NCBI GenBank assembly: GCA_002747395.1
Contig: PDPE01000033.1
Location: 36,566-100,565, forward strand
Direction: 5' to 3'
From: Pseudomonadota bacterium
Lineage (GTDB): Bacteria; Pseudomonadota; Gammaproteobacteria; Pseudomonadales; Oleiphilaceae
Length of the DNA stretch: 64,000 nt
The notes below the pieces were generated by a model that saw nothing but the letters and a program-made list of their open reading frames with translations, was not told the origin of the DNA and did no database searches. Of this stretch, positions 16,202-64,000 are shown one piece after another. The stretch's first letter is position 1; the number at the start of each line of letters is the position of its first letter. The position numbers and the translations under genes are program-made.

Positions 16202-16360
16202 GAGTGTCGTTCCAAATTGATTGGTTGTTTTTACGGTTGCATCAAAACTGACATATGATACCGTCGATAGTCAGAATTTTCACCATTGGGTGAGGTTATC
16301 TTTGTGGACAAGTGTTTTCGTACTCGGCGCGAGATAGCAAGTGCGAGTGAAAACAACCAG

Positions 16361-16425
16361 GAGCGAGCTGACAAAAACTATGAGTGAGCTAACAAAAAAC
16401 TATGAGTGAGTTAACAAAAGGCGAT
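16361..16425. repeat. 21/22-bp imperfect tandem repeat x3 spanning the mrp start codon
   Basis: GAGCGAGCTGACAAAAACTAT / GAGTGAGCTAACAAAAAACTAT / GAGTGAGTTAACAAAAGGCGAT. Confidence 0.85.
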
Positions 16426-17496: not shown

Positions 17497-17589
17497 GCCG
17501 TCAGTTTCTTCGGGAAGTTGAATAGGGTATGATTCACCTCAAAAATACAATGCGAATCAATGGATTGAATAATCAGGGAAAATAGCGAT

Positions 17590-18156
17590 ATGTCGATAAA
17601 ATCGGATAAATGGATTCGAAGCATGGCGGATCAGCATGGCATGATCGAGCCATTCGAGCCTGGTCAGGTACGTCAGGCTGGTGGAGAAAAAATCATATCG
17701 TACGGAACATCAAGTTACGGCTACGATGTCCGGTGCAGCCGCGAGTTCAAAATCTTCACCAATGTACACTCTGCCACGGTAGACCCGAAACACTTTGATG
17801 AAACCAGTTTTGTCGATGTCGCAAGTGATGTTTGTATTATTCCGCCCAACTCCTTCGCTTTGGCAAGAACGGTGGAATACTTCAGAATACCCCGTAATGT
17901 GCTGACCATTTGCCTGGGTAAATCCACTTATGCGCGATGTGGCATTATCGTCAACGTCACTCCGCTTGAGCCTGAATGGGAAGGGCATGTGACCCTGGAG
18001 TTTTCCAATACGACTACATTGCCAGCCAAAATCTATGCCAATGAGGGTGTGGCTCAAATGCTGTTTTTCGAATCTGACGAGCAGTGTGAAGTCAGCTACA
18101 AGGACAGGGGCGGAAAGTATCAGGGGCAAACGGGTGTGACCCTGCCTCAGGCCTGA
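17590..18156 (+). CDS. dcd: dCTP deaminase
   Basis: [28 protein letters not shown]...[23 protein letters not shown]. Confidence 0.96.
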
Positions 18157-18178
18157 TTTACTACCAGAAAAGGAAAAT

Positions 18179-18856
18179 ATGTCGGATTCTCAGGAAGGTG
18201 TCATCAAGTATCAGCTGGATTTCAGGCAGGAAAAATTGCCCGAAACGATCAGGTTGGATCAACTGGAGCTTTGCCGGTCGAAATTGATCCGGCTCGGCAT
18301 GTTGGGGCAGGATGATGCCCGATACGAAGGTTACGGCTTCGGCAATATATCGGCGAGATACACTTCGGTTATTGATCCTGCCAACCCTCTGCCTGCCAAC
18401 CGGTTACCCGGCTCGCCGGATGCCTTTCTTATCACCGGAAGTCAAACCGGCCATCTTGACAGCCTGAGTTGCGATGAGTATGTGCTGGTGGAGCACTTTG
18501 ACGAGAACGCAAACTCGCTTCGAGCTTGCGGCATGGTGAAACCCTCCTCCGAGAGCCTGTCTCACGGGGTAGTGTATCGCACTAAAGCGGAGGTTAACGC
18601 AGTGATTCACGTGCATGACCCCGAGCTTTGGAGCAATGCAGAAGCGCTTCAATTCCCGGTTATCCCCTCGAATATTCCCTATGGTACAGTTGAAATGGCA
18701 AAAGCCATTGCCGGGTTGCTTTTGACTCTGTATTCAAACCGGAATGCCGGGGTATTTGTCATGGCCGGGCATGAAGACGGTGTCATCGCATTCGGGCCGG
18801 ATGTGCCTGCGGCGATGGCTTTGCTGGCAGATAAAAAACAGATAAAAAATAACTGA
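18179..18856 (+). CDS. class II aldolase/adducin family protein
   Basis: RYEGYGFGNISARY, FLITGSQTGHLDSL, KPSSESLSHGVVYRTKAEVNAVIHVHDPELW. Confidence 0.8.
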   Translation: MSDSQEGVIKYQLDFRQEKLPETIRLDQLELCRSKLIRLGMLGQDDARYEGYGFGNISARYTSVIDPANPLPANRLPGSPDAFLITGSQTGHLDSLSCDEYVLVEHFDENANSLRACGMVKPSSESLSHGVVYRTKAEVNAVIHVHDPELWSNAEALQFPVIPSNIPYGTVEMAKAIAGLLLTLYSNRNAGVFVMAGHEDGVIAFGPDVPAAMALLADKKQIKNN

Positions 18857-23138: not shown

Positions 23139-23160
23139 ACAGAAAGGGGAACTTTCCGTT

Positions 23161-24945
23161 ATGGTTGGCTATTTTCAGCAGAAATTTGCTTTGAGTGAAA
23201 CAGGGGCGAAAGACTTGTGCACAGCAATTTTCTCGCACACGTTGTTAAACATCAGTTTTATGTTGCCCGTGATGTTGGCATTTGCTTTTTTGGATGATTA
23301 TGTCAGATATTTGCAAGCCGGAGAGGCAGTAACGAGATCAACCTGGTTTTATTTGATTTTTGCCCTGTGCGCTTTTATGGCAATGCTGGTGATCGCCTAC
23401 ATTGATTATGGCAACACCTATACAAAGATATATAGCGAAAGTGCCAGCAGGCGGATCAGGCTTGCCGAAACACTAAAAGCGCTCCCCATGGCATTTTTTG
23501 GCAAAAAAGATATCGCTGATCTGAGTGCTACTATTATGGAAGACGCTACCCGAATCGAAGAGATTTTTTCTCACGCAGTTCCGCAGCTTTTTGCTTCGAT
23601 TATTAGTATGTTGGTAATGACCTTGCTTATGTTTATCTATAACTGGCAAATGAGCCTCGCTCTGTTCTGGGTGGTTCCCGTCGGTTTTGCAGTGTTTGCC
23701 CTGTCCAAAAAAAGCATGGATAGAGGTCATGAAATGGTCTACTGCGAAAAGCGTCGTGTTACCGAAAAAATCCAGGAAGGTCTGGAAATGGTTCAGGAAA
23801 TAAAGTGCTGCCATCAGGAGTCCGCTTACCTTCAAGAGCTTGATGATCAACTGGACAAATACGAAAAACGACTGATCAGCTCGGAGCTGGTTGGCGGGAC
23901 ACTGGTCAATTTATCACACTTTATGTTGAAGCTGGGGTTGCCCAGCGTTATTTTTGTTGGTGCCTTTTTGTTGGCGGAAGGCAGTATTAGCCTGTTCACC
24001 TATCTTGTCTTTTTGATTGTCGTTGGACGCATTTACGATCCTTTGATAGACACAGTGAATCACCTTGCTGCTTTGCTCTACCTGGATGTGCGGATAAAGC
24101 GCATGAAGGATATGGATAGCATGCCGAGGCAAACGGGGAGAACGGATTTTCATCCCGAAGGATATGATATTGAGTTCAAGGATGTCAGCTTCTCCTATCA
24201 ACAAGGCCAGTCCGTAGTAAATCATGTGAGCTTTGTTGCCAAACAGGGTGATGTTACCGCATTGATTGGCCCCTCAGGCAGTGGCAAAACAACCACCGCC
24301 AGACTGGCAGCACGTTTTTGGGATATCGATAGCGGTATCATCATGCTGGGAGGTGAAAATATTGCGTACATAAACCCGGAAACCCTGTTGCGCTGTTTTT
24401 CCATTGTCTTTCAGGATGTGACTCTGTTTAATGCCAGCGTCATGGAGAATATTCGCCTGGGACGTAAAGATGCGACGGATGATGAGGTCAGGCAAGCCGC
24501 ATGCCTGGCCCAATGTGGGGACTTCATCGGCAGGCTGACGGATGGTTACAACACGGTTATAGGTGAGAACGGAGAAAGACTGTCTGGTGGTGAGCGTCAA
24601 CGCATCTCCATCGCCCGGGCCCTGCTGAAAAATGCACCTGTTATTCTACTTGATGAAGCGACTGCCAGCCTGGACGCCCACAACGAGAGTAAAATCCAAC
24701 AGGCGATCAGCGAATTGATTAAAGATAAAACGGTACTGATTATTGCTCATCGAATGCGTACCGTGGTCGCTGCCGATCAGATCATTGCCATGCAGGCTGG
24801 CAGAATTGTAGAAAGTGGCAGCCCCGAAAAGCTCGGAAAAAGCGATGGCATGTTTGCCAGCATGTTGAAAAATCAGGCCGCGCCTGGCCAGGCAGTGAAG
24901 TGGCCGGATTGTTTTTTTCAGCCTTCTTTAAACGTGATCAAATGA
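23161..24945 (+). CDS. ABC transporter, fused permease/ATPase (YbtQ/IrtB-like partner)
   Basis: Walker A GPSGSGKTTTARLA, LSGGERQRISIARALL, LLDEATASLDAHNE; internal ATG 23161 preferred over the longer ORF that overlaps the upstream gene. Confidence 0.85.
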   Translation: MVGYFQQKFALSETGAKDLCTAIFSHTLLNISFMLPVMLAFAFLDDYVRYLQAGEAVTRSTWFYLIFALCAFMAMLVIAYIDYGNTYTKIYSESASRRIRLAETLKALPMAFFGKKDIADLSATIMEDATRIEEIFSHAVPQLFASIISMLVMTLLMFIYNWQMSLALFWVVPVGFAVFALSKKSMDRGHEMVYCEKRRVTEKIQEGLEMVQEIKCCHQESAYLQELDDQLDKYEKRLISSELVGGTLVNLSHFMLKLGLPSVIFVGAFLLAEGSISLFTYLVFLIVVGRIYDPLIDTVNHLAALLYLDVRIKRMKDMDSMPRQTGRTDFHPEGYDIEFKDVSFSYQQGQSVVNHVSFVAKQGDVTALIGPSGSGKTTTARLAARFWDIDSGIIMLGGENIAYINPETLLRCFSIVFQDVTLFNASVMENIRLGRKDATDDEVRQAACLAQCGDFIGRLTDGYNTVIGENGERLSGGERQRISIARALLKNAPVILLDEATASLDAHNESKIQQAISELIKDKTVLIIAHRMRTVVAADQIIAMQAGRIVESGSPEKLGKSDGMFASMLKNQAAPGQAVKWPDCFFQPSLNVIK

Positions 24946-48029: not shown

Positions 48030-51000
48030 GTGATTCGATTAAGTTATAGTTTTATTGCCTTCGTTGCCTTTTGGTTGTTGTCTTTTGGCACATCCGCAAC
48101 CGAGTCGTTGTGTGCGGAAGTGAAAATCGAAATTTCCCAGGAGTTAACTTTGGAGCGTCAGGCGTTTGAAGCAATCATGCGAATTACCAATACGCTTGAT
48201 ACCTTTTCCCTCAATAATCTCCAGATCACTATCCACTTCAAGGATGCCAATGGGTTACCGGTTGTGGCCAGTTCAGATCCGAATCATTCAAGTGCGTTGT
48301 TTTTTATCCGATTAGATGGCTCCGCCGGAGTTAGTACATTATCGGAAGGCGAAAATGGCGAAATAACCGATGGCAGTATTGCACCCGCTGAAGTAGGGGA
48401 AATCCGTTGGTTAATTATCCCGGCGCAAGGGGCAGGAGGATCTGATTTAAGCGGGCAGCTTTATTTTGTGGGCGCTGAACTCGATCTAACGTATGGCGGT
48501 CAGCCAAGAACCTTCCAGGTTGCTAATGACACTATCGTTGTTAAACCTCAACCCAAACTTATTCTGGATTATTTCTTAACCCATGAGGTGAATGGTGATA
48601 ACCCGTTTACTTCAGTAATTGAACAGGTCGAACCATATTCGTTAGGCGTGCGTGTCGCCAACCACGGCAGTGGTACGGCACACAAAGTGAAAATCGATTC
48701 CGCACAGCCTGAAATTGTTGAAAACGAAAAAAATCTTCTGGTCGATTTTAGTATTGTGGGTAGTTTCGTTGATGATCAGCCAGCAACCAAAACCCTATTG
48801 CTTGATTTTGGCGATATTGAAGGCAACCGAAATCGAACTGGGCGCTGGATCATGGAAACCTCATTAACGGGAAGATTTGTAGATATCAACGCAAGGGTCA
48901 GTCATGCCGATGAATTAGGTGGCGCGCTTACTTCATTAATCGATGTAGTGAATACCCATCTCCTGGTTAGGGATGTGAGAGTCGATTTGGCTGGGCGTGA
49001 CAATAATCTGGACTTTTTAGCGCATGACGGGGTCAACAATTATAAAGTCTACGAATCAGACAACTTATTGACTGGCGCCCCTGGTTGTGAAGACTGCTCT
49101 GCAGTGACCAAACTGGATGGGGCACTGGGTTCAGAAACACGGGTAGGCAATGAAGCTCGCCGAATGCTGTCGCTCACACCGGTTTCTGGCTTGAGTTATA
49201 TTCAAGTGCCTGATCCCTATGTGGGCGAAAAAGCACTGACCAAGGTGATTCGCGCGGATGGAAAAGTGATCCCGGCCAGTAACTTCTGGTTAAGCAAATC
49301 GATCAAGGATGACAAGATCCATTTTGATTACTTTGTTAATGTCTTTGATAGTCATCCTCAGGTCTCCTATACGCTCGTATTTGGAGATAACTCGGTTGAG
49401 AATCAAGCGCCCGTTATTCAATTTATACAGGATAAAACAGCGGCAGAAGGTGGACAGGTTGGCTTTCTTGTGCAGGCATCGGATCCGAATAATACCATCC
49501 CTGTGCTTTCCATTACCAATCCGCCAACCGGCTCGACGTTTACTTCAGCTAATGATGGAACAGCCACTTTTCACTGGTTCCCGCAGATTGGCCAGGCAGG
49601 TAATTATTTGCTCTCGTTTGAAGCAACGGACGGTCAGTTAAAGTCAACACGAAATGTCAAACTGACGGTAAATCCAGATAATGACAGTGACGGCGATGGT
49701 ATGGAAGACGCCTGGGAGCTAGAACATTTTGGTAATCTGACCCGCGATGGTACCGGAGATTTTGATAATGACGGGATCTCTGATTTGCTTGAATACCTCA
49801 ACGGAAGCAATCCGCTTGTGGCAGAAGCAGCACCAGGTACTCCGGAAATAGTCTCTCCTGGTTATGATGATGACGTGCCAGCACCGTTACCCACATTTGT
49901 TTTGACAAACGCCCAACACAGTGGCGACATGTATGTCTCCTATACGATTGAGCTGTTCCAGGATGCGGGTTATTCGATTATGGTTGGTCGTGTTGAGGCT
50001 ATCCCAGAGGGAGAGGCAACGACAACGATTCCGCTTAGACCAGAACACCTGGTGAGCGGAGGAACCCTAATTGATAACCAGCTCTATTACTGGCGAGCTC
50101 AGGCACTGAGCCAGCACGCAACCAGCGATTGGGTCAACAGCCGATTTCGTCTCAATACTGCAAACCAGTCACCTGAAACTCCTCTCATTTTATCACCTGT
50201 GGAAGGCGCTTTTGTTGGGTCCCCCCATCCGGTACTCTCGGTTAAAAACAGTATTGACCCCGATGGCGATGCGCTCACCTATGGATTCACCGTTTTTCTC
50301 GCTTCGGACACGAACCTGGAAAACCCAGTGGCTGAAGTAATGGGACTACCTGAAGGGAGCAATGGTACGACAAGTTGGTCGGTACCTGCTGAACTGGTAT
50401 CCCAGGAGATGTACCTATGGATCGCTCACGTAGCCGATGAGCATGGTGCTGTGGCCGATAGCGATCCGGCCAGCTTTAAAGTGGCTCGTCTGAATGAGTC
50501 GCCAACGACGCCGACTCTGCGTTTACCTGCCAATCGTGCCATCGTTGACAGTGCGAATGTGGAGTTGGTGATCGAGAATGCGACCGATCCCGAAGGGGCG
50601 ATGCTGAGCTATTTCTTTGAAATCGATGAAACGGATGCTTTCAATTCGCCTTCGCTCATGTCATCTGAGGCCATTGTACAATCTGACTCCCGCACCCGGT
50701 GGCCTATGACCGGGTTGCAGGATGGTACTCAGTATTTCTGGCGGGTTCAGGCGAGTGATGGTCAGAATACCAGTTCATGGGCTTATAGTCAGTTCCAGGT
50801 CAGTTTAGATACCAGTTTACCCGTCCCCACGCTTAATAATCCAGCCCATAACACCTGGGTGGAAGTGACAAGGCCAACCTTGTCTGCGCATCCATTGAGT
50901 TCCGGACAAGTCGATTTGCAGTACGTGTTTGCGGTCTACACCGATGAAAGTGGTGTTGAACTTGTTGTGCAAAGTGCTGGAGTTGAAAAAGATGACATGG

Positions 51001-51614
51001 TTTCATGGACGTTGGATCGTGACTTAATCGAGGGCCAAACCTACTGGTGGCGGGTGAAAGTGTTAGGGGTGAATGATCAAGCCAGCGCCTGGAGTGCACT
51101 GCAGGCCTTTACGGTCAAACTGGACAATGAAAACGATGCCCCAGTATTCACGTTTGTTGAGCCAACTGAAGATATGACCCGCTTTGGTGGTCCTTTGCTG
51201 CTGAAATGGACTGACAGCGATCCCGACAGTTCAGCCAGTATTCGGTTGATTGCCAACACCACCCTCATTGCCGAGGGACTCTCTGAAGATGGCGACGGAG
51301 AGCAGGATCAATTCGAATGGGATCTGGATGGGTTGCCCGACGGAGAGTATGTGATTAAAGCGATTATCCGGGATGAAATGTCAACCATCACCGTGACGGG
51401 AATTACATTGACCAAAAACTCACCTCAAGTCTGTGATTTGAATGATGATGGATTGATTGATCGAGTGGACATCAATGCCATCCTGTCACGCAGGAATACG
51501 CTGGCCATCGGAGAAAATGATCCGGCTGATGCCAATGGAGACGGTGTGGTGACGGTAGTCGATGGTGGTTTGTGCGTGAATCAATGTACCTTGTTGAATT
51601 GTGCGTCTCAGTAA
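48030..51614 (+). CDS. large secreted modular protein: Ig/cadherin-like and Fn3-like modules, TSP3-like Ca-binding segment, C-terminal dockerin type I-like module
   Basis: Signal peptide (LSYSFIAFVAFWLLSFGTSATES); DNDSDGDGMEDAWELEHFGNLTRDGTGDFDNDGISDLLEYLNGSNP; repeated 'SP..GA...P.LSV.N..DPDGD.L.Y.F' modules; C-terminus CDLNDDGLIDRVDINAILSRRNTLAIGENDPADANGDGVVTVVDGGLCVNQCTLLNCASQ. Confidence 0.82.
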   Translation: MIRLSYSFIAFVAFWLLSFGTSATESLCAEVKIEISQELTLERQAFEAIMRITNTLDTFSLNNLQITIHFKDANGLPVVASSDPNHSSALFFIRLDGSAGVSTLSEGENGEITDGSIAPAEVGEIRWLIIPAQGAGGSDLSGQLYFVGAELDLTYGGQPRTFQVANDTIVVKPQPKLILDYFLTHEVNGDNPFTSVIEQVEPYSLGVRVANHGSGTAHKVKIDSAQPEIVENEKNLLVDFSIVGSFVDDQPATKTLLLDFGDIEGNRNRTGRWIMETSLTGRFVDINARVSHADELGGALTSLIDVVNTHLLVRDVRVDLAGRDNNLDFLAHDGVNNYKVYESDNLLTGAPGCEDCSAVTKLDGALGSETRVGNEARRMLSLTPVSGLSYIQVPDPYVGEKALTKVIRADGKVIPASNFWLSKSIKDDKIHFDYFVNVFDSHPQVSYTLVFGDNSVENQAPVIQFIQDKTAAEGGQVGFLVQASDPNNTIPVLSITNPPTGSTFTSANDGTATFHWFPQIGQAGNYLLSFEATDGQLKSTRNVKLTVNPDNDSDGDGMEDAWELEHFGNLTRDGTGDFDNDGISDLLEYLNGSNPLVAEAAPGTPEIVSPGYDDDVPAPLPTFVLTNAQHSGDMYVSYTIELFQDAGYSIMVGRVEAIPEGEATTTIPLRPEHLVSGGTLIDNQLYYWRAQALSQHATSDWVNSRFRLNTANQSPETPLILSPVEGAFVGSPHPVLSVKNSIDPDGDALTYGFTVFLASDTNLENPVAEVMGLPEGSNGTTSWSVPAELVSQEMYLWIAHVADEHGAVADSDPASFKVARLNESPTTPTLRLPANRAIVDSANVELVIENATDPEGAMLSYFFEIDETDAFNSPSLMSSEAIVQSDSRTRWPMTGLQDGTQYFWRVQASDGQNTSSWAYSQFQVSLDTSLPVPTLNNPAHNTWVEVTRPTLSAHPLSSGQVDLQYVFAVYTDESGVELVVQSAGVEKDDMVSWTLDRDLIEGQTYWWRVKVLGVNDQASAWSALQAFTVKLDNENDAPVFTFVEPTEDMTRFGGPLLLKWTDSDPDSSASIRLIANTTLIAEGLSEDGDGEQDQFEWDLDGLPDGEYVIKAIIRDEMSTITVTGITLTKNSPQVCDLNDDGLIDRVDINAILSRRNTLAIGENDPADANGDGVVTVVDGGLCVNQCTLLNCASQ

Positions 51615-51715
51615 CAGATGGAACAGGTTAAGGGGGGCTGGCGATAGCTACATCACCAGTCTCGCTGCCAGATTGTAATTATTATTGGAAGCAGTAAAAA
51701 ACGGAGAAATTGAGC

Positions 51716-52321
51716 ATGGTTAAAAAAAATTTTTATCGCTGTTTAAGAATAGGGTTACTCAGTCTCGTCGCCTTGTTCTCATTAAACAGTATGGCAGGGT
51801 TTATTGAAACCAGGCCTCACGAGGACACGGTAAGCTTGGGGAGTCAAGCAACGGTGGATGTTTATTTTTCAGACGCGAGTAGTTTGGTCAGAAGTTTCGA
51901 TTTTCTGGTTAGTTTTGATTCCGACATTCTGTCAATTGCTTCTGTTACATTCGGGGATCAGTTTGGCGGGGCGTTGGATGTCTTTCGGGATGTATCTTTT
52001 GGGGCGGATTTTGTGAATGTTAGCGAAATGTCCTTTCTTTCCGATTTGGCATCAGTACAGACTACACTGGATATATTTTTGGCATCTATCACCTTTGATG
52101 CTATGAGTCTGGGAATTTCTGCATTGAGCCTCGCCGGACAGGATTACAATAGTGGGAATATTTTGTTTGATGAGTTAGGTTCTGCTATTGGATTGGATAT
52201 TGTGAAAACAGGTTTCATCAATGTGATTAGCGCCAGCGTGCCGGAAGCACCGATGACTGGATTATTGGCTATCGCTTTGTGTGCGTTTATGACCCAGCGC
52301 AAAAAACGCACTGAATCGTGA
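51716..52321 (+). CDS. cohesin-like domain protein with PEP-CTERM-type C-terminal sorting signal
   Basis: Signal peptide; DTVSLGSQATVDVYFSDASSLVRSFDFLVSFDSDILSIASVTFGDQFGG...LDIFLASITFDAMSLGISALSLAGQ; C-terminus SVPEAPMTGLLAIALCAFMTQRKKRTES (VPEx - TM - basic). Confidence 0.75.
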   Translation: MVKKNFYRCLRIGLLSLVALFSLNSMAGFIETRPHEDTVSLGSQATVDVYFSDASSLVRSFDFLVSFDSDILSIASVTFGDQFGGALDVFRDVSFGADFVNVSEMSFLSDLASVQTTLDIFLASITFDAMSLGISALSLAGQDYNSGNILFDELGSAIGLDIVKTGFINVISASVPEAPMTGLLAIALCAFMTQRKKRTES

Positions 52322-52333
52322 GAGCAGGTTGAT

Positions 52334-53221
52334 ATGACGGGACGAAACAAGAGTCTGTTCAACCTTGGCTGTCTAACGGATGGGGGGTTATGGCTAGTGC
52401 CTATGCTGATGGCCAGTCTTGTTTCCTTTTCCAGCCATGCTGAGCGTGAAGCAGAGTCCACGAGCTGCATGGCGGAACAAACCTATAGAGCCAGTGTAAA
52501 AGAAGTGGTCACTCAGGTACCCGTCGAAACAGATTATTCGTGTCTTGTATCACCGGAAAGCGTCGATTCATCGGGCCGAAAAATCGTGGATACACGAATC
52601 GCACAAGAGTTCCAGCGTGCCTATATTCCTGGTTCAATCAATCTTTCGCCGCACTTTCTCCTCAATGATGGCAAATGGAAGTCACAACCGGTGTTGATCG
52701 TCAATAAAGGAGCGTTAATCAAGGAAAACGCTGCTTTGTGTTTCCAGCTGCATCAGAAGGGATTTAAGGATGCGAAGATTCTGGAAGGGGGGTTGAGCGC
52801 CTGGAATTTGAGTGGACGCCCGTTAGTGGGTTTACCCGATGACATTCATGCGCTATCTCGTATGACGAAAAGGGAGTTTGCGGCGGTGGTGCTGGCGGGT
52901 ACATCCATTATTGTCGTGGGTAATAGCGCTTACGAGCAGGTCCGCGCTCTGTTTCCTTATTACGTGTCGGTGATCAGTGTAATGGATGGTTCGTCACTTG
53001 CAGAGAGCTTGACTCAGGCATTTGATATTCAAGCCTCGTTGCGGCATTCCGTTGTCGTGTTGGAGGCAACATTAAAGGAAACTCCCGGAAGTGGTTATCA
53101 GAATCTGTTCACCTATCGGGCCACATTTTCGGAAATTGTGAATGATTTTCGATCAACGCGACTGACTCAATACAAGCGCACACAGGTACCGGATCGGTAT
53201 CGTTGTAAGGGGCGTAAGTAA
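52334..53221 (+). CDS. exported rhodanese-fold protein, catalytic Cys apparently missing
   Basis: N-terminal hydrophobic/signal region; VDTRIAQEFQRAYIPGSINLSPHFLL...PVLIVNKGALIKENAALCFQLHQKGFKDAKILEGGLSAWNLSGRPL. Confidence 0.75.
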   Translation: MTGRNKSLFNLGCLTDGGLWLVPMLMASLVSFSSHAEREAESTSCMAEQTYRASVKEVVTQVPVETDYSCLVSPESVDSSGRKIVDTRIAQEFQRAYIPGSINLSPHFLLNDGKWKSQPVLIVNKGALIKENAALCFQLHQKGFKDAKILEGGLSAWNLSGRPLVGLPDDIHALSRMTKREFAAVVLAGTSIIVVGNSAYEQVRALFPYYVSVISVMDGSSLAESLTQAFDIQASLRHSVVVLEATLKETPGSGYQNLFTYRATFSEIVNDFRSTRLTQYKRTQVPDRYRCKGRK

Positions 53222-53222
53222 A

Positions 53223-54116
53223 ATGAAATGTTTGATTGGCCAGAGAATCAGGCCCATCGCCATTGTAGTCTTATTGTTAGCTCTCGTAGGGGTGGTTTAT
53301 TGGGTAGTTATCTACCTGAATCAAACAGAGACCAGGCAAAATAGTACGACTGTTTCCCAAAAACATCTTCGTTACCAGTTTGAGTTACATAATCGGGGAG
53401 AAGCAGTGGCCGATCAGGTAGATATCACCTTATTCATACCTGATGACAGCCTCCCCTTTCAACGCCGTATCGGTACGAAGGCGGGGAATCTGGCTCAATT
53501 ATCATCAGGTGAATACACTGAGGATGGATTCCGACTTCGACTGAAACGAATTGCGCCATATGCCCGCAAGTCAATTATTCTCGATGCCCAGGTAGAAATT
53601 ACTTCAGGCATGCATATCGTGGAGCCGGGTCAATGGCTTGCTGCGCAACGCTATATTGAAGCCGACCACCCATTGGTGAGACGGGTCGCTCAACAGTTTT
53701 CCTCACTATCAAAACACCTGCAACCCAAAGCGGTCTATAGTTGGGTTGTGGAGAATATTCAGTCATTGAATTATATCCGGGAATCCCGTGGTGCCGTATG
53801 GGTGTTGGAGAATCGAAAAGGAGATTGTACTGAATTCAGTTATTTGTATGTTGCATTGTTGCGGCACTTAGGGATACCGGCAATGCCGGTGGGTGGGTTT
53901 ATCGCAAGGCAGCCAAGCACGGTGCTGGGTGGCGCCGATTACCACAATTGGGCTTACTTCCACCAAGATGGGGAGTGGAAGCTTGCGGATCCGCAGAATG
54001 GCGTGTTTGATCAGTCAGCAGAGAACTATGTGGTGTTTCGGGTGATTAGAGACCCAGAGGATGAGAGAGCGAAATTTTTCACTTCTCACCCGGACGTTCT
54101 GGTCTTTATGCGGTGA
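53223..54116 (+). CDS. membrane-anchored transglutaminase-like superfamily protein
   Basis: N-terminal TM (AIVVLLLALVGVVYWVVIYL); VLENRKGDCTEFSYLYVALLRHLGIPAMPVGGF (Cys), GGADYHNWAYFHQDGEWKLADPQNG (His, Asp). Confidence 0.86.
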   Translation: MKCLIGQRIRPIAIVVLLLALVGVVYWVVIYLNQTETRQNSTTVSQKHLRYQFELHNRGEAVADQVDITLFIPDDSLPFQRRIGTKAGNLAQLSSGEYTEDGFRLRLKRIAPYARKSIILDAQVEITSGMHIVEPGQWLAAQRYIEADHPLVRRVAQQFSSLSKHLQPKAVYSWVVENIQSLNYIRESRGAVWVLENRKGDCTEFSYLYVALLRHLGIPAMPVGGFIARQPSTVLGGADYHNWAYFHQDGEWKLADPQNGVFDQSAENYVVFRVIRDPEDERAKFFTSHPDVLVFMR

Positions 54117-54196
54117 GCAACAAAAGGGGTTGGATAAAAGGGCGGCACGTTTCGTTGTGCGATAGACCTGGATAATTTGGTTTAAAAGGGAAAAAG

Positions 54197-57100
54197 ATGA
54201 AAGCACTGCTTAAAGCTGTAATGTTGGTATGGGTTTTTTCGTTTACTCTATTTGGTGAGAATGTATACGCCAGCCTGGAATTGGTCAAATTTGGGGATCA
54301 AAGCTACCGAGACGCCGTAATGGCAGATTCGCCCATAGCCTACTGGCGAATGGATGAGTTCCAGGGGGCATCTGTTGGAATAGATGAAACCGGGAACGGT
54401 CACGACCTCAGTTACCCTCTTTCGGTAAGTGCAGATTCTTCGGTTTTGATAGAAGGTCGGTCTCGAAAACTGTCTGCGCATCCAATTAGAGCGGCAGACG
54501 ATAGTGCCTGGGATCTTCAGCAGTTCACGCTGGAAACATGGTTTAAATCGAAAAAAACTGATTCGGACGCAGCATTTCTTATTGCCCATTCCGCCAGCGG
54601 GAGTCCATATAATTGGGGTTTATACGAATCAACATCAGGTAGGTATAGTCTTTATGTCAGAATCAATGGAACTGTGCAGGTGATTGGTTTTGAAAGAGAG
54701 CTAGCCCCGGTTAATCAATGGCATCATCTTGTTGGCACCTATGACGGCGTGACACTTAAACTGTATTTGAACGGTCGTCAAGTTGTCGAAAGGCAGATTT
54801 CGGGTACTGTTTCGCAAAACGCCGGTACTATTGATCTCGGTGAGTGGTCTGGTGGCCGGTTTGATGGCAGCATTGATGAAGTAGCAATATACAACTACGC
54901 CCTCAGTAGTCAGCAGATTAGTGATCATTTTGCCAATGCCACGCTGTACAGATCCGATTTTACCGAGAAGCAAAGAAATGATATTGACCTTTATGATTTA
55001 ACAGTTCTGAGGGGTGGGCCTGTCAGCTATTGGTCACTTGATGATAATGTCACTGCCGTTGATCTGGTTTCGCACTATTCCGGGAGTATTGACAACGCTC
55101 CTTCGAAAGCTGAAGGAATAATGGGAATTGAAAATAAAGCACTTAATTTTGAGAAGTCTGCCAACCAGCATGTGGTGGTACCTAACCAATCTTTGGCTCA
55201 TAAATTAGATCAGTACTCAATTGAGGCATGGGTAAAAGCAGATGAATTTGGGCCTTATCGGGCAATTTTTTCGAAAATTCCGACTGATGATTTGGGGGTG
55301 GCGTTACGATTCTCGGGTGATGGCCAACACTTTCAATTTTATCAAAAAGGGCAAAGTGGTTCCGAGTTTATGTTAGTGGATTCCGATGTCTTTCAATTAG
55401 GGAAGTGGTATCACATTGTTGCTACATTTAGTGCAGGTCAGGCGAAGCTATTCGTCAATGGTGAAGTCAAGGCGGAAGGGCAATTTACGTTAACCCCGGT
55501 TACGCCAGAACTTCCTATTCTTATAGGCCAACATTATTACAGCACCAATCATTCACATCTAAATTTCGATGGCACAATCGACAATGTGGCATTTTATGAT
55601 CGGGTTCTAACGTCTCAGGAAGCTACGACTCATTATCAAGCTGGTCAATCGAGACTGGCAGAAATATTTGTCGAGGCGTCTTCGATGGATGAAGCTGCGA
55701 TCAATGCAAAGGGCGTTGTCGTATTCGGTGTTGATGGACAAAGCTCTTTATTTAAACTGACAGGATTAAGAGAAAACTTCGCTAAACTCTTCGCCACAGA
55801 CAACACAGCCAGTGTTCCGACCAGCCTTTTAGATGTTCTACAGAACTATTTTAGTGAGCCTACAAACATATACACGCATGGCACTCCTTTATATATTTCA
55901 TATGCTGTTGGTAGTGATTGGCATGCTGGCGGTGGTCCAACCGGTTTTATTGAAACAACCGAACTAACTAATTTCTCCCTGTATACCTACTATGACAACT
56001 TTTATTGGTATGGAGGCTATTACGGGCCGAATTGGATCAAAGACGCTTCAAATAATGTCTATATATTCGACAATAAAACCGGTAACCGGGTTGGAAATTC
56101 GGATATTCATCAAAGTGTGTATGTGAGCGAAACGAAAAAAGTCGATTTTTATATGAACTATGGTGGAATTCATGTTGTTGCGGTTACTTCAATACCGACA
56201 GCTCAACACGTGACCGGTGGAGAATATCGCGCTAATGCAATGTTTGAGATTCCAGGTACCTCTCAGCCAGTAACGACTCCTGTTGTGTGGAGTGAAACAA
56301 AAAAGGGAAGTGGCATTAGCGTTTCTTCTGAAGGTTTAACGGTGTCTAAAGCATCGGGATCCTGGCAAACCGCGCTTGCCTCATCCGCGGCATACACGGG
56401 GAATGTGGCCTGGGAAGTCGCTATTACTGAGGGGAATATTCATTATATTGGCTGGATATCAGATGATGCTAATCTCGAAAGAGCTGTCCATTGGGCGAAT
56501 GGTGCCACTCAGGTTGCAGGTTGGAGATCAACCGGGCAGATAAGTACTCAGTTTAATGAAATACAATCTGGTGCCGTATACTCGGTCGGCGATATTTTGG
56601 GATTTGTCTATCGAGCAGAAGCAGGGGTGCTGGAGTTTTGGCTTAATGGTCAAAAACGCCATACTGCAAGTGGTTTTTCAGGAGCCTTGTATCCTGCCTG
56701 GAGTGCAGAAGGTGCTGCTTCGGCCATTGGCAGATTTTCTTCGGTTCAGTATAACTATGGGTCTGATGTGGTTCTGTTATCTGACCAGGAGGATCAGGAT
56801 GCCCCTGTCGAGATAGATGCTGATCCGGATAATGACGGGTTGTCCAGTCAATTTGAAATCGCTATTGGAACGGATCCAGATCAACCGGATACGTTGACCA
56901 GCAGTGATACTTTTGTTTTCGTGCATACCGAGTTGGAAAGTATTGGGGATATCGTCGCATTTGATAATAAGTATTACTTTCTTGCACGAAAAGAGGGCGA
57001 TAGCTATCTCCATCAAAGATTACAATTTGCCGATACGTTTTTCGATACGATTAATGAGGTATCTGCAGTCGCCAGCCGAATCAGAGCGACAACTTTGTAT

Positions 57101-60100
57101 GCTGATGATAGTTGGGTTTATTTCAACCATGGAAATGGACTCGTGAGGTATGATGGTAGCGTTGGTGTAGAAACATTCGATACAGATGGCAGTTATGTGA
57201 GCAAAGATATTACCAGTATCGACAATACGCTGATTTATGGGCGTTCTTACGGAAGTGGACAAGGTAATTTTTGGTATATTTTCAATCGGGATTTGCCACT
57301 AACAAGTGGTCATCAATTTGTACGGGATTACTGGGTACGTAATGTTTACTGGGGTAGGGGGCAGGCGGCGGTCAGATTTAAAGGTATAACGTATTTTTTT
57401 GGCACATTGGCACACAGTCCTAATGGAAAACCCGCTGTCTATTCAACCGCCAAAACCGACTTATACTCCATTAACTCAAAAACTGATTTACAGTTAGTGG
57501 ATACGGGTATTGATAATTTGATGGCATCTAACTCACATACTGCTTTTATGGCCAGTAATGATGCTGCTGTAGTCGTTGTCGTTTCAAATACAGGGAACTA
57601 CAGCATTAGTCGTGACAATACAAATTGGGTTACGAGATCAATTGATAACTATCAATTTGTTACTAAACGAATGGTAACTGATGGCATATTCTTTTATGCG
57701 ATGGTGCAGCATACTTCACATGGCACTTTCCACATCGTCCGAATCCTGGCTAATGGAGAATACCAGGTTAAATGGGATTTAGCCGGTGCAACTGACTTTG
57801 TAGATGGTTCTTATCAGGTCTTATGGCACCAATTGAACATGATTGACAATCATTTGGTTGTGGTTGGTACGCGAACTCTTGATGATGATGTATCTGAAGG
57901 TATCGTTCAAGCTATTCCAGTTTTACGTGAAAGTACGAGTGTATCGTTGACGTTGGACACTGAAGGCAGTGGTTCATCGATTCTTCTCGATTGGAGTAGC
58001 CATGACAGTTTGGCGGACGGAATTACCGGGTATAACGTCTATATTCAGTCAACAGATTTTGCTTCGATAGAAGGATTAACTCCTGTTGCGACGGTTTCTG
58101 GTAAACGGCATTATCTGGCTGAGAATTTACCCAAATCACAGGCAAGCTATTTTGCCGTGGTACCGGTAGACGACGAAGGGACTCTGTATACCGACGTCAC
58201 TGCGCTATCTGCTATTCCGGTTGACACACTTGCTCCAGAAGAAGTTTCGAATTTAGCGGTAATGGAGTCCAACGAAACTTCGATTCATCTGCGTTGGAGT
58301 GCGTCTATTGATAGTGCTAAAGACCTTCAGGGATATCGAATTTCAATTATTCAAGAGGATAATAGCCATACACGCGAAGAGACCCTGCTGAAATCAGATC
58401 TGGATCCTGATTTGGAGTTCATTGAGTATCATGTATCCGGTCTGAATATGGGTGTGGCGTACCAGGTCAAAGTCGCTGTATTTGATGAGAGTGATAACTA
58501 CTCAGAAGGTATGCAGATTCCAGCGCTCACTTGGCTTGCCAATCCACAAAACGTAAACGTAGAAGCATTAGATAAAAAACTGGTGGTGTCCTGGGAGTCC
58601 GCACAGCCTTCAAATTTGGTCTCTCACTACAATGTTTACGCTGAATCCACCCCGGGCGTGGTTTACCAAATAGCCGTAACAGTAGTTAATACAGCAGGAG
58701 CAGAGAATACTGCTGTAGCAAGTTCTGCAGGTATGCCAATTGGCGATACTTTCGGCCCGACTATTACCAGTATTTTGTGGAAGGATGGCATTGATACGAT
58801 AGATATTACCAGTGGAGGTATCGTTAAACGCGAGGGGCAACTGGAAGTTCAAGCGACAGACCCATCCGGGATTAATCGTGTCGTTTTCGAGAAGAATGCC
58901 GCCCCCTGGGGAGTCGACTTGTCAGGTTCGCCGCATTTTGAGCAGCCCTGGCATTTGGTTGACGACGCAGATGGCGATTATACCATCAAGATTACTGTTT
59001 TCGATAATCATAACAACGCCACCAGTCATACATTGACCCTGGATGTCGCCTTGCTTCCTCCCTCGCAGCCGTCAATCACTCTGCCCGCCAGCGGATTGGC
59101 AACTAATCAAGAGGCGGTGACGGTGACGGGTACCGCCGAGCCGGAAACCATCATTCAGCTGCAACGAAATGGCGTTTCGATAGGTTCGGAATTCGTGGTC
59201 TCAAGTGGCGGAACGTTTACAAATGTCGTTACATTAGTTGACGGAATGAATGAACTCACCGCCATGGCCCGTTTCGAGAATCGATTTGCTTTTAGCCAGG
59301 CAAGTGCACCCGTTTCTATTACTTTTGATTCATCCATTCCAGCCACACCTGAGAATTTAGTCACCACGGCCAGGGCATTGGGTAAAGTGACCCTGTCCTG
59401 GTTTGAAGCCGATGACGATACTGTCCTGGGTTATCATGTTTATCGTTCAAATGATCCATTTGTGTCTGTGTCGGAACCAGGTGTTGCCAGGCTTACTTCT
59501 TCCCCACTGGGCACTCCCAATTATCAGGATGTACCCATTGAAGATGGCACTTATTATTACGCCGTGACCAGTGTCAACGGGGTCGATACCGAAAGTACCC
59601 TGAGTACTGTCAGCAAAGTGGATGCCGATAGCCAGGGGCCTCAAGCTCTGACGATTGAATACCAGCCACAGGGTTCGTTTGATTCTGTCACCGGCCGTTA
59701 TGGCGCAGGTCGACTAGGGGTCACTATCACCTTTAATGAACCATTGCGTAACACACCCTTTTTCGCATTATCCACCTCCGGCGGTTTGCCCTTAACCGCC
59801 TCGCTGGTGAAAGACTTTTCAGACCCATTGGTTTACAAGGGGGAAATCGAAATTACCCCCACCACTTCGTCTGGCGTCGCGGTAGCCGTGCTATCTGCCT
59901 TTGATTCGGTTGGCAATCGGGGAACGGATGTAATCTCTGGCGAAGAGATCCTCATTGATACTCAGGCGCCGAAGGTTACGCAACTGACGGTAAACCCGAA
60001 TGCCCCTATACAAAATGTATTGAGTCCGGAAACGGATGTAGAGGTTGAAATTACCTTGGCGGAGGAAGTCAAAGCCGGCACACAGCCCACCTTGATCCCC

Positions 60101-63100
60101 GTTCTTTTAGAAAACGGGATATCCGCGCCAATTGTTGGCCTTGAAGCTGGCATTGCCTTAACCCGGGAGGCCGGGGCAGGGCAGCCGCGTTATACTGGGC
60201 AGTTCACTTTGCCACCAAATGCGGGCGTTGATGCGGGTGGTTTGCCTAATGCTGAATTATTGAGTTTTACCTTTGAGGCTTTTGATGATTTGGATAATCG
60301 TGCAACTCATATTCAGGGGAATACGTCCTTTCAAGTCTATCAGGGCGATTTACCTCCGTTGGATGCACCCACAGGCCTGACGGCGCAGGCCTTGCCAGGG
60401 GGGCAGGTGAGTCTGAATTGGCAAGCGGTTCCTGAAGCCGCCGGTTACCTGTTACATCGCCAGGCACCGGGTGAAACCGAACTGACTGAATGGGTTCAAT
60501 TTGACAGTGGTGTAACGACAGCTTTTCTCGATGGTGAGCCGGTACCCCTGGACGATGGAGATTATCACTATGCCATTGCCTCATTACGTTCTGCCAATGG
60601 CCAAAATGCTGTCAGCGCCTACAGTCCGGTTATTATCGTACCGGCCGATGGCCTGGCACCTGCACCGCCAGACAATCTCATTGCGGAACTCAATGGCGCA
60701 GGTGTGGTATTACGTTGGCAAGCGCCTGTCGCAGAGCCGCAAAATGAGCTGCTGCGTTACAAGGTGTATCGACTCGATTTACCTCAAGGAACAGAGGTGA
60801 TCGATCTAAGTGGCGTAGAGGCACTTCAGGAGAATATTCCAGAAGTGATTGCTCTGGATAGTACCCCTTCCACAACCGATCATCTGTATGTTGTCACCGC
60901 TGTTGATTCAGCGGGCAACGAATCCGCGCCGTCCAACAGTCAGTATATCAATGTGGATCTGCTCCCCGTAAAGGATCTGCATATCGATATGACTGTCGGT
61001 CAAGCGCCAGAGATTCAGTGGGGCCATTCCAGCCCAGGTATTGCCGGATTCGAGCTGGCAACGGGGCCGGATGGCAACCTTATACCTTTGATGAATGTTG
61101 ATGGCGGTGTATTCAGCTACGTTGATTCCACCTACCCGGGTAATGCAACCGTGGCTGTTGAGCGGCGTTATACTGTGATAGCGAAAGACAATCAGGGTAT
61201 GGCCAGTCTACCCCATAGCCTGGTGCTGCCAGCAGTAAGTGTTGCGCTGTCTCCGATGAATGCGACGCCCCCGATTCAAAAGGGGATCATGAATCGTGTG
61301 CTCTTTCGGGTAGGGAACAGTGGTGCCACGCTTATAAACCAGGCACGACTGCTGGTTGGCATACAGGTCGATGGTCAAACACGCTTGCACCCCTCCGCCC
61401 CGTTTTCTGTTCAGCCAGGTGGCTTTGCTGATGTCAATGTCGTAGTCGGGGGCTATAACTCACTGGATGCCATTGTTAATTTAAATGTTTCGCTCCTCTG
61501 GCAGCCTAATGTTGGTGAGCAGGTGACGATCCAGCAACCGATCGGCATTGAAGTCGGGCAATCCGGACTCGTCGCGCGATTGGAGCCAGAGGCCTTGATA
61601 CGGGGAGGCCTGGGTAAGGCGCGGCTGATCCTGGAGAACATCAGCGATGTCGAAACAGAGATCCTGCTTGCCGTTAATAATGGCAAGGCCGATTCACCCG
61701 ATGTTCGCTTTGTGCTCGAAGATATGGATGGCAATCGACTGAGCACCACTGCAGTCAGACAGGTGAGCGGCCAGGTCATCAGTGTCAGCGATGGTTCAGT
61801 TGTCGCACGAATTCCGGCGGGAGAAACCTATCTGTCTGATGTGTTTGACATGCAGGTGCCCGCTTCGGCTCCTGACGATGTGGTTCTGAAACTGGAAATC
61901 GATCAGTTCCATTATCAGGTAGGACGGCGCAATCATGTGGTGATTATTGGTACCACGGCAAGCCAGGCCGTCAACCTGGTGGAAACGCCGTATTATGGTC
62001 GCCTGGACAGCATTACGCCAACTCGGATCTACGCCGGTGATCCTGTGACATTCCAAGGTGTTGCGCTGGATCGTGAAACCGATGTCGCCTTAATTGGGGT
62101 GCCGTTGAATTTGGTTTTGACATCACAAGGATTTGAACGTAGCTATCCGGTTATTACCCGCCCGGATGGAACTTTCAGTTTCAACTGGGTGCCGACCTTG
62201 GCAGAGTCGGGAGAGTACCAGGTGTCTGTGATTCATCCGCAACGTCTTGATCGACCGGATCATGGTCATTTTGTCGTAGAAGGCGTGACGGTGAGTCCCA
62301 CTCAACTTGAGGTATCAATACCGCGTAACTTTACTCAGGATATTGATTTGAAAGTGACTACAGGGGTGGGCACGACGTTGCAGAATGTTCACCTCAAGCT
62401 GGTCAAAGCTGAAAATGCCAGTGGCCAGGACGTGCCTCTGCCAGAAGGTGTGAGCTGGAATGACTATACCATTGCGCAGGTGGCCTCCGGGGTAACCGGG
62501 TATCTGAAGTTGCAGATTAATGGTAACAATCTGGCACCGGAACGAGGCTATCTGACCTTTGATGTCGTGGCTGATAATCTTGGCCAGACATTGGCGACTA
62601 TCCGAGCCGAGTACTTCTTTGCCGAAGCCTTACCGGTTCCTAAAGTGAGCCCGAGTTTCATCACCACGGGCACCAGGCGGGGCGGCAATCAGAGTGAGGT
62701 ATTTACCTTACGTAACGAAGGGTTGGCGCCCATCAGCAATGCCCACCTGACATTGGTCAATGAAGATGACACGGCTGCACCGGACTGGATTCGGCTGGCG
62801 GGCACCTCGATTCTGGGCGATATTGGAGTGAACGAATCCAGGGATATTCACGTGTTGGTCACTCCGGATACTGGCGCATCGAATGGGGACTACCGCTTCA
62901 AAGTGATGATTCAGGGTGACAATATTCCTGCGCAACCGTATTACGTGGCTGTGGCCGTTACCGATGCAACTACAGGCAGTGTGGTATTCCACACCCGTGA
63001 CATCTACACCGCCACGCTGGATGAGCAGGGTAACCCGATTCCCGGATTGGGGCAGGTGAGTCTCAAACTGCAAAACGAAGAAGTACTCAGCGCTGTCTTT

Positions 63101-63916
63101 GAGGTTCAGAGTGATCAAAATGGCGATGCCGTACTGGATAACATCCCCACCGGTTCGTACTTTTTCCGGGCCAGCGCCTTTGATCACGAAACCGTCACTG
63201 GACGCTTACTTGTCAAACCGGGAACGACTACCTATGAAGGCGTATTCCTGATGAATAAACTGGTCACCGTTGAGTTTTCAGTGAGGGAAATTACGCTGCA
63301 AGACCGCTACGAGATCGTACTCGAATCTACGTTTGAAACCAATGTTCTCGCACCGGTAATTATTTACGAACCTGCGGCGGTGAATCTGCCGTTGATGGAG
63401 AAAGGACAGGTGTTTTACGGCGAGCTGACGCTCACCAATTATGGGCTATTGCAGGCTGATACCGTTACGACACAGTACCCCAAAGGGGATGAATTCACCC
63501 GTTTCGAATTTTTAGCGGATACCCCGGAGACCTTGGGTCCCGGAGAATTTGTAGTGATTCCCTACCGGGTGATTGCGTTGCAAAACTTTGATCCCGGTCT
63601 GGATGGTAATGCTACCGGTGGTGGTTGCGTCAATCTGCAATACCAGGTGAAAACAGACTGTACAGCTGTGTGCTTGGGTGGTGATACCACGACCACCTCC
63701 AGTAGTTCCACGTTCAGCGTCAAAGGCGGCAGTTCCTGTGGTGGATCAGGCGGCGGCTTTGGCGGCGGGTATGGATTTTACGGTGGATTTGGCGGGTCAG
63801 GTGGCGGTGTGTCCCTGATACCGAAAGGCCCGGATACGTTAGAGGATAACGAAGAATGCGAAACTTATGGCTGTGACAGCGCGAGCTGCGCCTGCCCGGA
63901 AGGGAGCGCAGACTAA
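54197..63916 (+). CDS. giant (3239 aa) secreted multidomain protein: two LamG-like domains, SPRY-like domain, TSP3-like segment, multiple Fn3, carboxypeptidase-regulatory-like domain, Gly/Cys-rich C-terminus
   Basis: Signal peptide; PIAYWRMDEF...FTLETWFKS...WHHLVGTYDGVTLKLYLNGRQV...FDGSIDEVAIYNYALSSQQI and a second LamG (YSIEAWVKADE...WYHIVATFSAGQAKLFVNGE...FDGTIDNVAFYDRVLTSQEA); AYTGNVAWEVAITEGNIHYIGWISDDANLE..VGDILGFVYRAEAGVLEFWLNGQ; Fn3 repeats; tail CGGSGGGFGGGYGFYGGFGGSGGGVS...CETYGCDSASCACPEGSAD. Confidence 0.85.
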   Translation: MKALLKAVMLVWVFSFTLFGENVYASLELVKFGDQSYRDAVMADSPIAYWRMDEFQGASVGIDETGNGHDLSYPLSVSADSSVLIEGRSRKLSAHPIRAADDSAWDLQQFTLETWFKSKKTDSDAAFLIAHSASGSPYNWGLYESTSGRYSLYVRINGTVQVIGFERELAPVNQWHHLVGTYDGVTLKLYLNGRQVVERQISGTVSQNAGTIDLGEWSGGRFDGSIDEVAIYNYALSSQQISDHFANATLYRSDFTEKQRNDIDLYDLTVLRGGPVSYWSLDDNVTAVDLVSHYSGSIDNAPSKAEGIMGIENKALNFEKSANQHVVVPNQSLAHKLDQYSIEAWVKADEFGPYRAIFSKIPTDDLGVALRFSGDGQHFQFYQKGQSGSEFMLVDSDVFQLGKWYHIVATFSAGQAKLFVNGEVKAEGQFTLTPVTPELPILIGQHYYSTNHSHLNFDGTIDNVAFYDRVLTSQEATTHYQAGQSRLAEIFVEASSMDEAAINAKGVVVFGVDGQSSLFKLTGLRENFAKLFATDNTASVPTSLLDVLQNYFSEPTNIYTHGTPLYISYAVGSDWHAGGGPTGFIETTELTNFSLYTYYDNFYWYGGYYGPNWIKDASNNVYIFDNKTGNRVGNSDIHQSVYVSETKKVDFYMNYGGIHVVAVTSIPTAQHVTGGEYRANAMFEIPGTSQPVTTPVVWSETKKGSGISVSSEGLTVSKASGSWQTALASSAAYTGNVAWEVAITEGNIHYIGWISDDANLERAVHWANGATQVAGWRSTGQISTQFNEIQSGAVYSVGDILGFVYRAEAGVLEFWLNGQKRHTASGFSGALYPAWSAEGAASAIGRFSSVQYNYGSDVVLLSDQEDQDAPVEIDADPDNDGLSSQFEIAIGTDPDQPDTLTSSDTFVFVHTELESIGDIVAFDNKYYFLARKEGDSYLHQRLQFADTFFDTINEVSAVASRIRATTLYADDSWVYFNHGNGLVRYDGSVGVETFDTDGSYVSKDITSIDNTLIYGRSYGSGQGNFWYIFNRDLPLTSGHQFVRDYWVRNVYWGRGQAAVRFKGITYFFGTLAHSPNGKPAVYSTAKTDLYSINSKTDLQLVDTGIDNLMASNSHTAFMASNDAAVVVVVSNTGNYSISRDNTNWVTRSIDNYQFVTKRMVTDGIFFYAMVQHTSHGTFHIVRILANGEYQVKWDLAGATDFVDGSYQVLWHQLNMIDNHLVVVGTRTLDDDVSEGIVQAIPVLRESTSVSLTLDTEGSGSSILLDWSSHDSLADGITGYNVYIQSTDFASIEGLTPVATVSGKRHYLAENLPKSQASYFAVVPVDDEGTLYTDVTALSAIPVDTLAPEEVSNLAVMESNETSIHLRWSASIDSAKDLQGYRISIIQEDNSHTREETLLKSDLDPDLEFIEYHVSGLNMGVAYQVKVAVFDESDNYSEGMQIPALTWLANPQNVNVEALDKKLVVSWESAQPSNLVSHYNVYAESTPGVVYQIAVTVVNTAGAENTAVASSAGMPIGDTFGPTITSILWKDGIDTIDITSGGIVKREGQLEVQATDPSGINRVVFEKNAAPWGVDLSGSPHFEQPWHLVDDADGDYTIKITVFDNHNNATSHTLTLDVALLPPSQPSITLPASGLATNQEAVTVTGTAEPETIIQLQRNGVSIGSEFVVSSGGTFTNVVTLVDGMNELTAMARFENRFAFSQASAPVSITFDSSIPATPENLVTTARALGKVTLSWFEADDDTVLGYHVYRSNDPFVSVSEPGVARLTSSPLGTPNYQDVPIEDGTYYYAVTSVNGVDTESTLSTVSKVDADSQGPQALTIEYQPQGSFDSVTGRYGAGRLGVTITFNEPLRNTPFFALSTSGGLPLTASLVKDFSDPLVYKGEIEITPTTSSGVAVAVLSAFDSVGNRGTDVISGEEILIDTQAPKVTQLTVNPNAPIQNVLSPETDVEVEITLAEEVKAGTQPTLIPVLLENGISAPIVGLEAGIALTREAGAGQPRYTGQFTLPPNAGVDAGGLPNAELLSFTFEAFDDLDNRATHIQGNTSFQVYQGDLPPLDAPTGLTAQALPGGQVSLNWQAVPEAAGYLLHRQAPGETELTEWVQFDSGVTTAFLDGEPVPLDDGDYHYAIASLRSANGQNAVSAYSPVIIVPADGLAPAPPDNLIAELNGAGVVLRWQAPVAEPQNELLRYKVYRLDLPQGTEVIDLSGVEALQENIPEVIALDSTPSTTDHLYVVTAVDSAGNESAPSNSQYINVDLLPVKDLHIDMTVGQAPEIQWGHSSPGIAGFELATGPDGNLIPLMNVDGGVFSYVDSTYPGNATVAVERRYTVIAKDNQGMASLPHSLVLPAVSVALSPMNATPPIQKGIMNRVLFRVGNSGATLINQARLLVGIQVDGQTRLHPSAPFSVQPGGFADVNVVVGGYNSLDAIVNLNVSLLWQPNVGEQVTIQQPIGIEVGQSGLVARLEPEALIRGGLGKARLILENISDVETEILLAVNNGKADSPDVRFVLEDMDGNRLSTTAVRQVSGQVISVSDGSVVARIPAGETYLSDVFDMQVPASAPDDVVLKLEIDQFHYQVGRRNHVVIIGTTASQAVNLVETPYYGRLDSITPTRIYAGDPVTFQGVALDRETDVALIGVPLNLVLTSQGFERSYPVITRPDGTFSFNWVPTLAESGEYQVSVIHPQRLDRPDHGHFVVEGVTVSPTQLEVSIPRNFTQDIDLKVTTGVGTTLQNVHLKLVKAENASGQDVPLPEGVSWNDYTIAQVASGVTGYLKLQINGNNLAPERGYLTFDVVADNLGQTLATIRAEYFFAEALPVPKVSPSFITTGTRRGGNQSEVFTLRNEGLAPISNAHLTLVNEDDTAAPDWIRLAGTSILGDIGVNESRDIHVLVTPDTGASNGDYRFKVMIQGDNIPAQPYYVAVAVTDATTGSVVFHTRDIYTATLDEQGNPIPGLGQVSLKLQNEEVLSAVFEVQSDQNGDAVLDNIPTGSYFFRASAFDHETVTGRLLVKPGTTTYEGVFLMNKLVTVEFSVREITLQDRYEIVLESTFETNVLAPVIIYEPAAVNLPLMEKGQVFYGELTLTNYGLLQADTVTTQYPKGDEFTRFEFLADTPETLGPGEFVVIPYRVIALQNFDPGLDGNATGGGCVNLQYQVKTDCTAVCLGGDTTTTSSSSTFSVKGGSSCGGSGGGFGGGYGFYGGFGGSGGGVSLIPKGPDTLEDNEECETYGCDSASCACPEGSAD

Positions 63917-64000
63917 ATGACTGATAGTGTAACGACACCCCTTGACAAAGGTAACCCAACAGGAGCACCTGCCATGATAATCCCTCCCGCCTTGCGCTCT
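63917..64000 (+). CDS. start of the next gene in the same operon, truncated by window edge
   Basis: ATG immediately follows the TAA of the giant gene (TAAATG); 28 open codons MTDSVTTPLDKGNPTGAPAMIIPPALRS. Confidence 0.55.
   Translation, partial: MTDSVTTPLDKGNPTGAPAMIIPPALRS

Follow-up and report, generated by a model that had tools for sequence, protein, structure and literature searches.

A gammaproteobacterial locus with a cohesin-dockerin gene pair as a putative member of a recurrent Rhs-associated gene cluster

Introduction

Among the described systems closest to the locus presented here are the Rhs/YD-repeat polymorphic toxins of the Sec/type II secretion (T2SS) type. According to the available part of the text of Zhang et al. 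(2012, PMC3482391), T2SS-type toxins carry adhesive domains such as laminin-G at their N-termini and inactive transglutaminase domains occur fused inside Rhs toxins; rhodanese, cohesin and dockerin are not mentioned in that part. With the toxins as portrayed there, the relatives of our locus share Rhs repeats, the Rhs core, HNH/HINT tips and a secreted N-terminus, whereas the transglutaminase-fold (TG) protein of the cluster is encoded apart from the toxin, resides in the membrane and has an intact triad, and a giant protein and a so-called C-x-VKIEI module are additional.

Three further systems allow a comparison. Like type II secretion and MSHA-like pseudopilus systems, the related clusters of Burkholderiales hold GspE/GspF-like proteins, a secretin and pseudopilins in one run, but their secretin bears a C-terminal cohesin and does not reach the GspD, PilQ and MshL cut-offs, and our locus lacks such genes. 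Tc toxins (TcB/TcC) and T6SS Rhs effectors resemble the Rhs proteins of the related loci in their Rhs-repeat shell-type architecture with variable C-termini; the scanned relatives differ in having signal-peptide-like N-termini and no SpvB/TcdB-type or PAAR domain. To our knowledge, a default Sec/T2SS route is the only one proposed so far for secreted Rhs toxins that belong neither to the T6SS nor to the Tc systems. Cellulosomes consist of a scaffoldin with several cohesins and of dockerin-bearing glycoside hydrolases. As in cellulosomal and non-cellulosomal cohesin-dockerin pairs, a cohesin fold, a two-loop calcium dockerin and adjacent genes are present in our locus, yet the cohesin is single with a PEP-CTERM-like tail and is paired with a surface protein instead of an enzyme.

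Within the open-licence literature we found no description of a cluster of rhodanese, transglutaminase and Rhs genes or of one combining cohesin, dockerin and PEP-CTERM, both results being weak evidence of absence. The cluster is apparently widespread and undescribed. We consider it fairly likely that our locus belongs to a recurrent cluster that exports an Rhs (YD-repeat) protein and displays it on the cell surface, with the cohesin-dockerin pair as its lineage-specific anchor.

Gene organization of the locus

The window, i.e., the whole stretch of 64,000 nucleotides analysed here, comes from a bacterium of the same family as Marinobacter oulmenensis and ends at base 64000 with the last base of its contig (100,565 bases). 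It contains a run of five + strand genes encoding a dockerin protein, a cohesin, a rhodanese-fold protein, a TG-fold protein and a giant of 3239 aa, followed by the beginning of a sixth gene:

48030..51614, + strand, secreted 1194-aa protein with conserved N-terminal module, Ig/Fn3 repeats and C-terminal dockerin
48114..49307, + strand, conserved C-x-VKIEI module of about 400 aa, 47-55% identical in 11 other loci
51435..51611, + strand, dockerin with two intact calcium loops and a Cys-containing tail (CVNQCTLLNCASQ)
51716..52321 (ORF from 51710), + strand, signal peptide, cohesin (51797-52252) and PEP-CTERM-like tail
52334..53221, + strand, secreted rhodanese-fold protein without catalytic cysteine (Rhodanese, 1.2e-9)
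53223..54116, + strand, membrane-anchored TG-fold protein with intact Cys202/His241/Asp256 (Transglut_core, 7.6e-17)
54197..63916, + strand, 3239-aa giant with two LamG, SPRY, Fn3, Ig-like and carboxypeptidase-regulatory-like domains and a Gly/Cys-rich tail
63917..64000, + strand, gene six, truncated after 28 codons where the contig stops; Rhs/YD-repeat protein predicted by position only

The first-pass annotation had described five consecutive + strand genes with short gaps. The ORFs (48012/48030-51614, 51710/51716-52321, 52334-53221, 53223-54116 and 54197-63916) lie where it had placed them, separated by 95, 12, 1 and 80 bp; for the dockerin protein an alternative upstream TTG start at 48012 is possible. 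Its sixth gene, said to start on the stop of the giant, could also be located: an ATG at 63917 directly follows that stop codon, and 84 bases can be read before the contig stops, which leaves the remainder of the gene unreadable. Scans of the window for promoters and terminators gave fewer sites than shuffled sequences, so that operon structure is deduced from gene spacing only. Neither Rfam families nor tRNAs were found in the window, and a PADLOC run gave no match. Window positions 21309-24945 hold two neighbouring genes of the ABC exporter type (PF00664 and PF00005).

The cohesin-dockerin pair

The dockerin proposed for the C-terminus of the 48030-51614 product was retained despite a weak Pfam score (E 0.5, below the cut-off), as both calcium loops (DLNDDGLIDRVD and DANGDGVVTVVD) are intact; its C-terminal position is a feature of type I dockerins. 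For the product of the following gene (51716-52321), the Pfam cohesin model reached 23.6 bits (cut-off 24.1), and 24.3 bits with its frame. The first 37 PDB matches of the structure model (pLDDT 72.5) were all cohesins (best match 5lxv, E 1.6e-7) and a profile search against PDB sequences found cohesins at up to 4.3e-11, both pointing to the cohesin fold that had been suspected initially. As to the PEP-CTERM signal also ascribed to this protein, its tail (VPEAPMTGLLAIALCAFMTQRKKRTES) is PEP-CTERM-like and the recommended search of the genome revealed one exosortase (7.2e-69), but the tail has no Pfam match, the PEP-CTERM model matching the paralogous cohesin of a second pair instead.

This second pair (L004, G000:C1, 8901-17084, - strand) comprises a CARDB/Ig/PKD protein of 2487 aa with a dockerin at its end and, after it, a PEP-CTERM cohesin of 203 aa; the larger protein also contains a weak matrixin-like stretch. 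Two cohesin genes and two dockerin genes are all that the genome encodes, and each dockerin gene sits directly upstream of a cohesin gene, in agreement with the adjacent pair first reported for the locus. The probability of this double adjacency by chance is about 2e-7, an indicative figure only, calculated for a genome of about 3,100 genes in random order. A survey of the order (392 genomes) gave cohesin matches in just five genomes, those in G195 (flagellin-like frame) and G189 (wrong frame) being false. The four real cohesin genes, two in the window's genome and one each in G013 and G070, without exception adjoin a gene with a two-loop dockerin (4/4). By genomics, the cohesin-dockerin pairing is well supported. 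The dockerin of G070 (L116, 6736-10056, + strand) is the C-terminus of a multicopper oxidase-like protein, with the cohesin gene directly after it; the pairing is therefore not bound to one protein type. Another genome, G071, holds a relative with a dockerin, and a cohesin was not detectable there.

Cohesin and dockerin modules are also the only features that would speak for a cellulosome-like, carbohydrate-degrading scaffold. A single cohesin, a single dockerin protein and five genes without a carbohydrate-active enzyme domain (Pfam), together with the genome-wide counts, agree with the original remark that the locus is no cellulosome; the gene content refutes this explanation, whose probability we regard as negligible. 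The cluster also suggests a role of cohesin-dockerin pairs in surface attachment, beyond carbohydrate degradation.

The C-x-VKIEI module, a highly conserved region of about 400 aa in the N-terminal part of the dockerin protein, has no family model in Pfam and no sequence match in the PDB. Its AF2 model consists of tandem beta sandwiches (pLDDT 81); the fold search was not used to assign a function, as its matches were all to multi-domain Ig-like proteins and had low TM values of about 0.2. Most proteins with this module end without a dockerin, their C-termini being RTX and discoidin-like or unassigned tails, and the cohesin-dockerin clasp is hence an ending that this lineage has on an otherwise conserved protein. 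We infer that the C-x-VKIEI-module protein is located on the outer surface and that its C-terminus is interchangeable.

Rhodanese-fold protein, transglutaminase-fold protein and giant

Pfam agrees with the fold assignments made earlier for the three remaining proteins, namely rhodanese, transglutaminase and LamG/Fn3, the giant matching LamG_3 at 2.9e-51 (two copies) in addition to SPRY and fn3. In the alignment of full-length TG members, the triad Cys202, His241 and Asp256 is invariant (20/20), and the protein is probably an active thiol enzyme. The active-site Cys of the rhodanese is missing from all 20 aligned members, which suggests that the rhodanese-fold protein is probably a non-catalytic partner. 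A tandem pair of TG-family genes was observed in L142 (10268-12631), the second of which matches more weakly (3e-15), perhaps as a divergent copy.

A fimbrial identity of the giant was considered and rejected. The NCBIfam matches to TafC (62 of 410 bits) and PamR (42.7 of 300) are far below the cut-off and rest on the LamG and Fn3 repeats, and the giant was accordingly not assigned as fimbrial.

Distribution of the gene cluster

Four of the five proteins have relatives whose genes repeatedly cluster together, namely in Gammaproteobacteria, Burkholderiales, Desulfobacterota and Elusimicrobia. The conserved-neighbourhood comparison thus bore out the expected co-occurrence, and since the gene set recurs across phyla, more than a chance arrangement is indicated. 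A search with the rhodanese yielded orthologue-like matches in G149 and G036 and a weaker one in G071, each adjoined by a TG gene; longer stretches from this search contain rhodanese, TG, giant and then an Rhs-repeat gene. Scanning named genomes with the TG alignment resulted in 35 loci. True relatives account for about twenty of them; these belong to Motiliproteus, Marinobacter, Microbulbifer, Polaromonas, Aquabacterium, Methylococcaceae, several Desulfobacterota, Elusimicrobia and Synergistaceae. Rhodanese and TG genes are adjacent in nearly all related loci, including those of Desulfobacterota, Elusimicrobia and Synergistaceae.

A search with the C-x-VKIEI module alone as query served as an independent test. 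The module was found in nine of 369 genomes of the class. Among the seven others with the module in full, 6/7 have a same-strand TG gene (E<1e-60) at a distance of up to 15 kb, and 4/7 have an Rhs gene no more than 10 kb away. These genomic comparisons show the rhodanese-fold and TG-fold genes as near-constant neighbours that cluster with genes for the giant, the C-x-VKIEI-module protein and Rhs proteins. Judged from the sequences, the conserved core is composed of rhodanese, transglutaminase, giant and the N-terminal module of the dockerin protein, while conservation is lowest for cohesin and dockerin, which are specific to the lineage.

Association with Rhs proteins

Rhs repeats were present in all 20 genomes picked by TG or rhodanese alone, compared with two of 14 control genomes. 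In every relative with readable downstream DNA (10/10), the giant precedes an Rhs gene or is fused to it. The Rhs gene comes next after the giant in six of these loci (Marinobacter L040, G036 L042, Motiliproteus L119, Polaromonas L126, G643 L140 and G480 L148); the module protein lies between the two in G071 L044 (with two additional small genes) and G707 L143; and giant and Rhs are fused in one frame in L049 (2741-12586) and L128 (3287-19099, 5270 aa). Based on this order, gene six is predicted to encode an Rhs/YD-repeat protein.

The locus was originally taken for a free-standing surface system, in which five proteins form an extracellular cohesin-dockerin assembly without an Rhs partner in this lineage. 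The gene set and the pairing on which that model was built still hold; its independence probably does not, given that the locus is most likely one version of a recurrent cluster with Rhs proteins and links to T2SS-like genes. The Rhs link was missed at first because the contig ends 84 bases into gene six. It is consistent with an assembly lacking Rhs that the cohesin-dockerin pairing is clear and that no Rhs repeats were found in the draft genome of the window (92.8% complete). However, the other four proteins occur together with Rhs elsewhere, each readable relative of the giant precedes or is fused to Rhs, and in several relatives, too, the contig stops within an Rhs gene or shortly after it, which would explain the end point of the window if gene six encodes an Rhs protein. 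We therefore hold the assembly without Rhs to be improbable and prefer the Rhs-associated cluster.

The Rhs proteins of the related loci allow a closer look at their putative function. Motiliproteus coralliicola L119 harbors two Rhs genes (1370-5560 and 14325-18497), whose products are identical over about 1,250 residues and then differ. An HNH nuclease forms the C-terminal tip in some relatives and HINT in others, and some tips contain no recognizable toxin domain. In the position where an immunity gene would be expected, one Rhs gene is directly followed by a gene for a DUF3969 protein, and small unassigned genes lie downstream elsewhere. Variable tips on an identical core, HNH/HINT tips and a downstream DUF3969 protein are usual for polymorphic toxins. 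The scanned Rhs proteins have signal-peptide-like N-termini, and no PAAR or SpvB/TcdB-type domains were among their Pfam matches. The clustered Rhs protein is probably a contact-dependent antibacterial toxin. Alternatively, giant, module protein and Rhs partner could together form a structural adhesion or biofilm fibre, in which the Rhs proteins are not toxins. LamG, Fn3, discoidin, RTX and Ig-like domains throughout the cluster, the weak matches of the giant to the fimbrial/pilus families and the tips that lack a toxin domain are compatible with a fibre, but the variation of the tips after an identical core, the HNH and HINT tips and the DUF3969 protein argue against it, and we rate it as unlikely.

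Proposed mode of action and secretion genes

For the Rhs-associated cluster the following sequence of events is conceivable. All cluster products would cross the inner membrane by Sec. The giant may represent the N-terminal, surface-adhesive half of an Rhs particle, since giant and Rhs are fused in some species. In the periplasm, the membrane-anchored TG-fold enzyme and the dead rhodanese-fold protein could process, cross-link or chaperone the giant, and a type II-secretion-like secretin would export the giant/Rhs particle. The dockerin end of the C-x-VKIEI-module protein would then clasp, in a calcium-dependent manner, the product of the neighbouring gene, a cohesin sorted by the exosortase. 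Whether these parts amount to an undescribed delivery of giant Rhs toxins, with a split particle, maturation by TG and dead rhodanese, a cohesin-bearing secretin in some lineages and an interchangeable anchor (cohesin-dockerin in our locus), is a tentative proposal to which we give somewhat less than an even chance. The cluster provides candidate dedicated partners for secreted Rhs toxins in several phyla, and the export route of Rhs can be tested by gene deletion in the cultured Motiliproteus coralliicola, Marinobacter oulmenensis and Microbulbifer agarilyticus.

Among the genes flanking our locus no dedicated secretion genes were found, which speaks against this reading, as do the draft genome without Rhs repeats, the many module proteins that have no dockerin and the dockerin of G071 without a detectable cohesin. 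T2SS-like genes are located within the cluster in the Polaromonas and Aquabacterium loci. In Polaromonas (L126/L127) a single run comprises giant, Rhs, module protein, pseudopilin, GspF, GspE, secretin, pseudopilins, rhodanese and TG. The secretin of this run carries a C-terminal cohesin domain and scores under the curated cut-offs of GspD, PilQ and MshL. No two-loop dockerin was found in the clusters with a cohesin-bearing secretin; docking at the secretin is for this reason not claimed. The Marinobacter locus contains GspC-like and GspD-like genes ahead of rhodanese, TG, giant and Rhs. Further secretins of the Burkholderiales type with C-terminal cohesin were observed in L052 (5116-7557), L064 (4922-7357), G254, G260 and G261, where T2SS-like runs lie beside rhodanese and TG genes.
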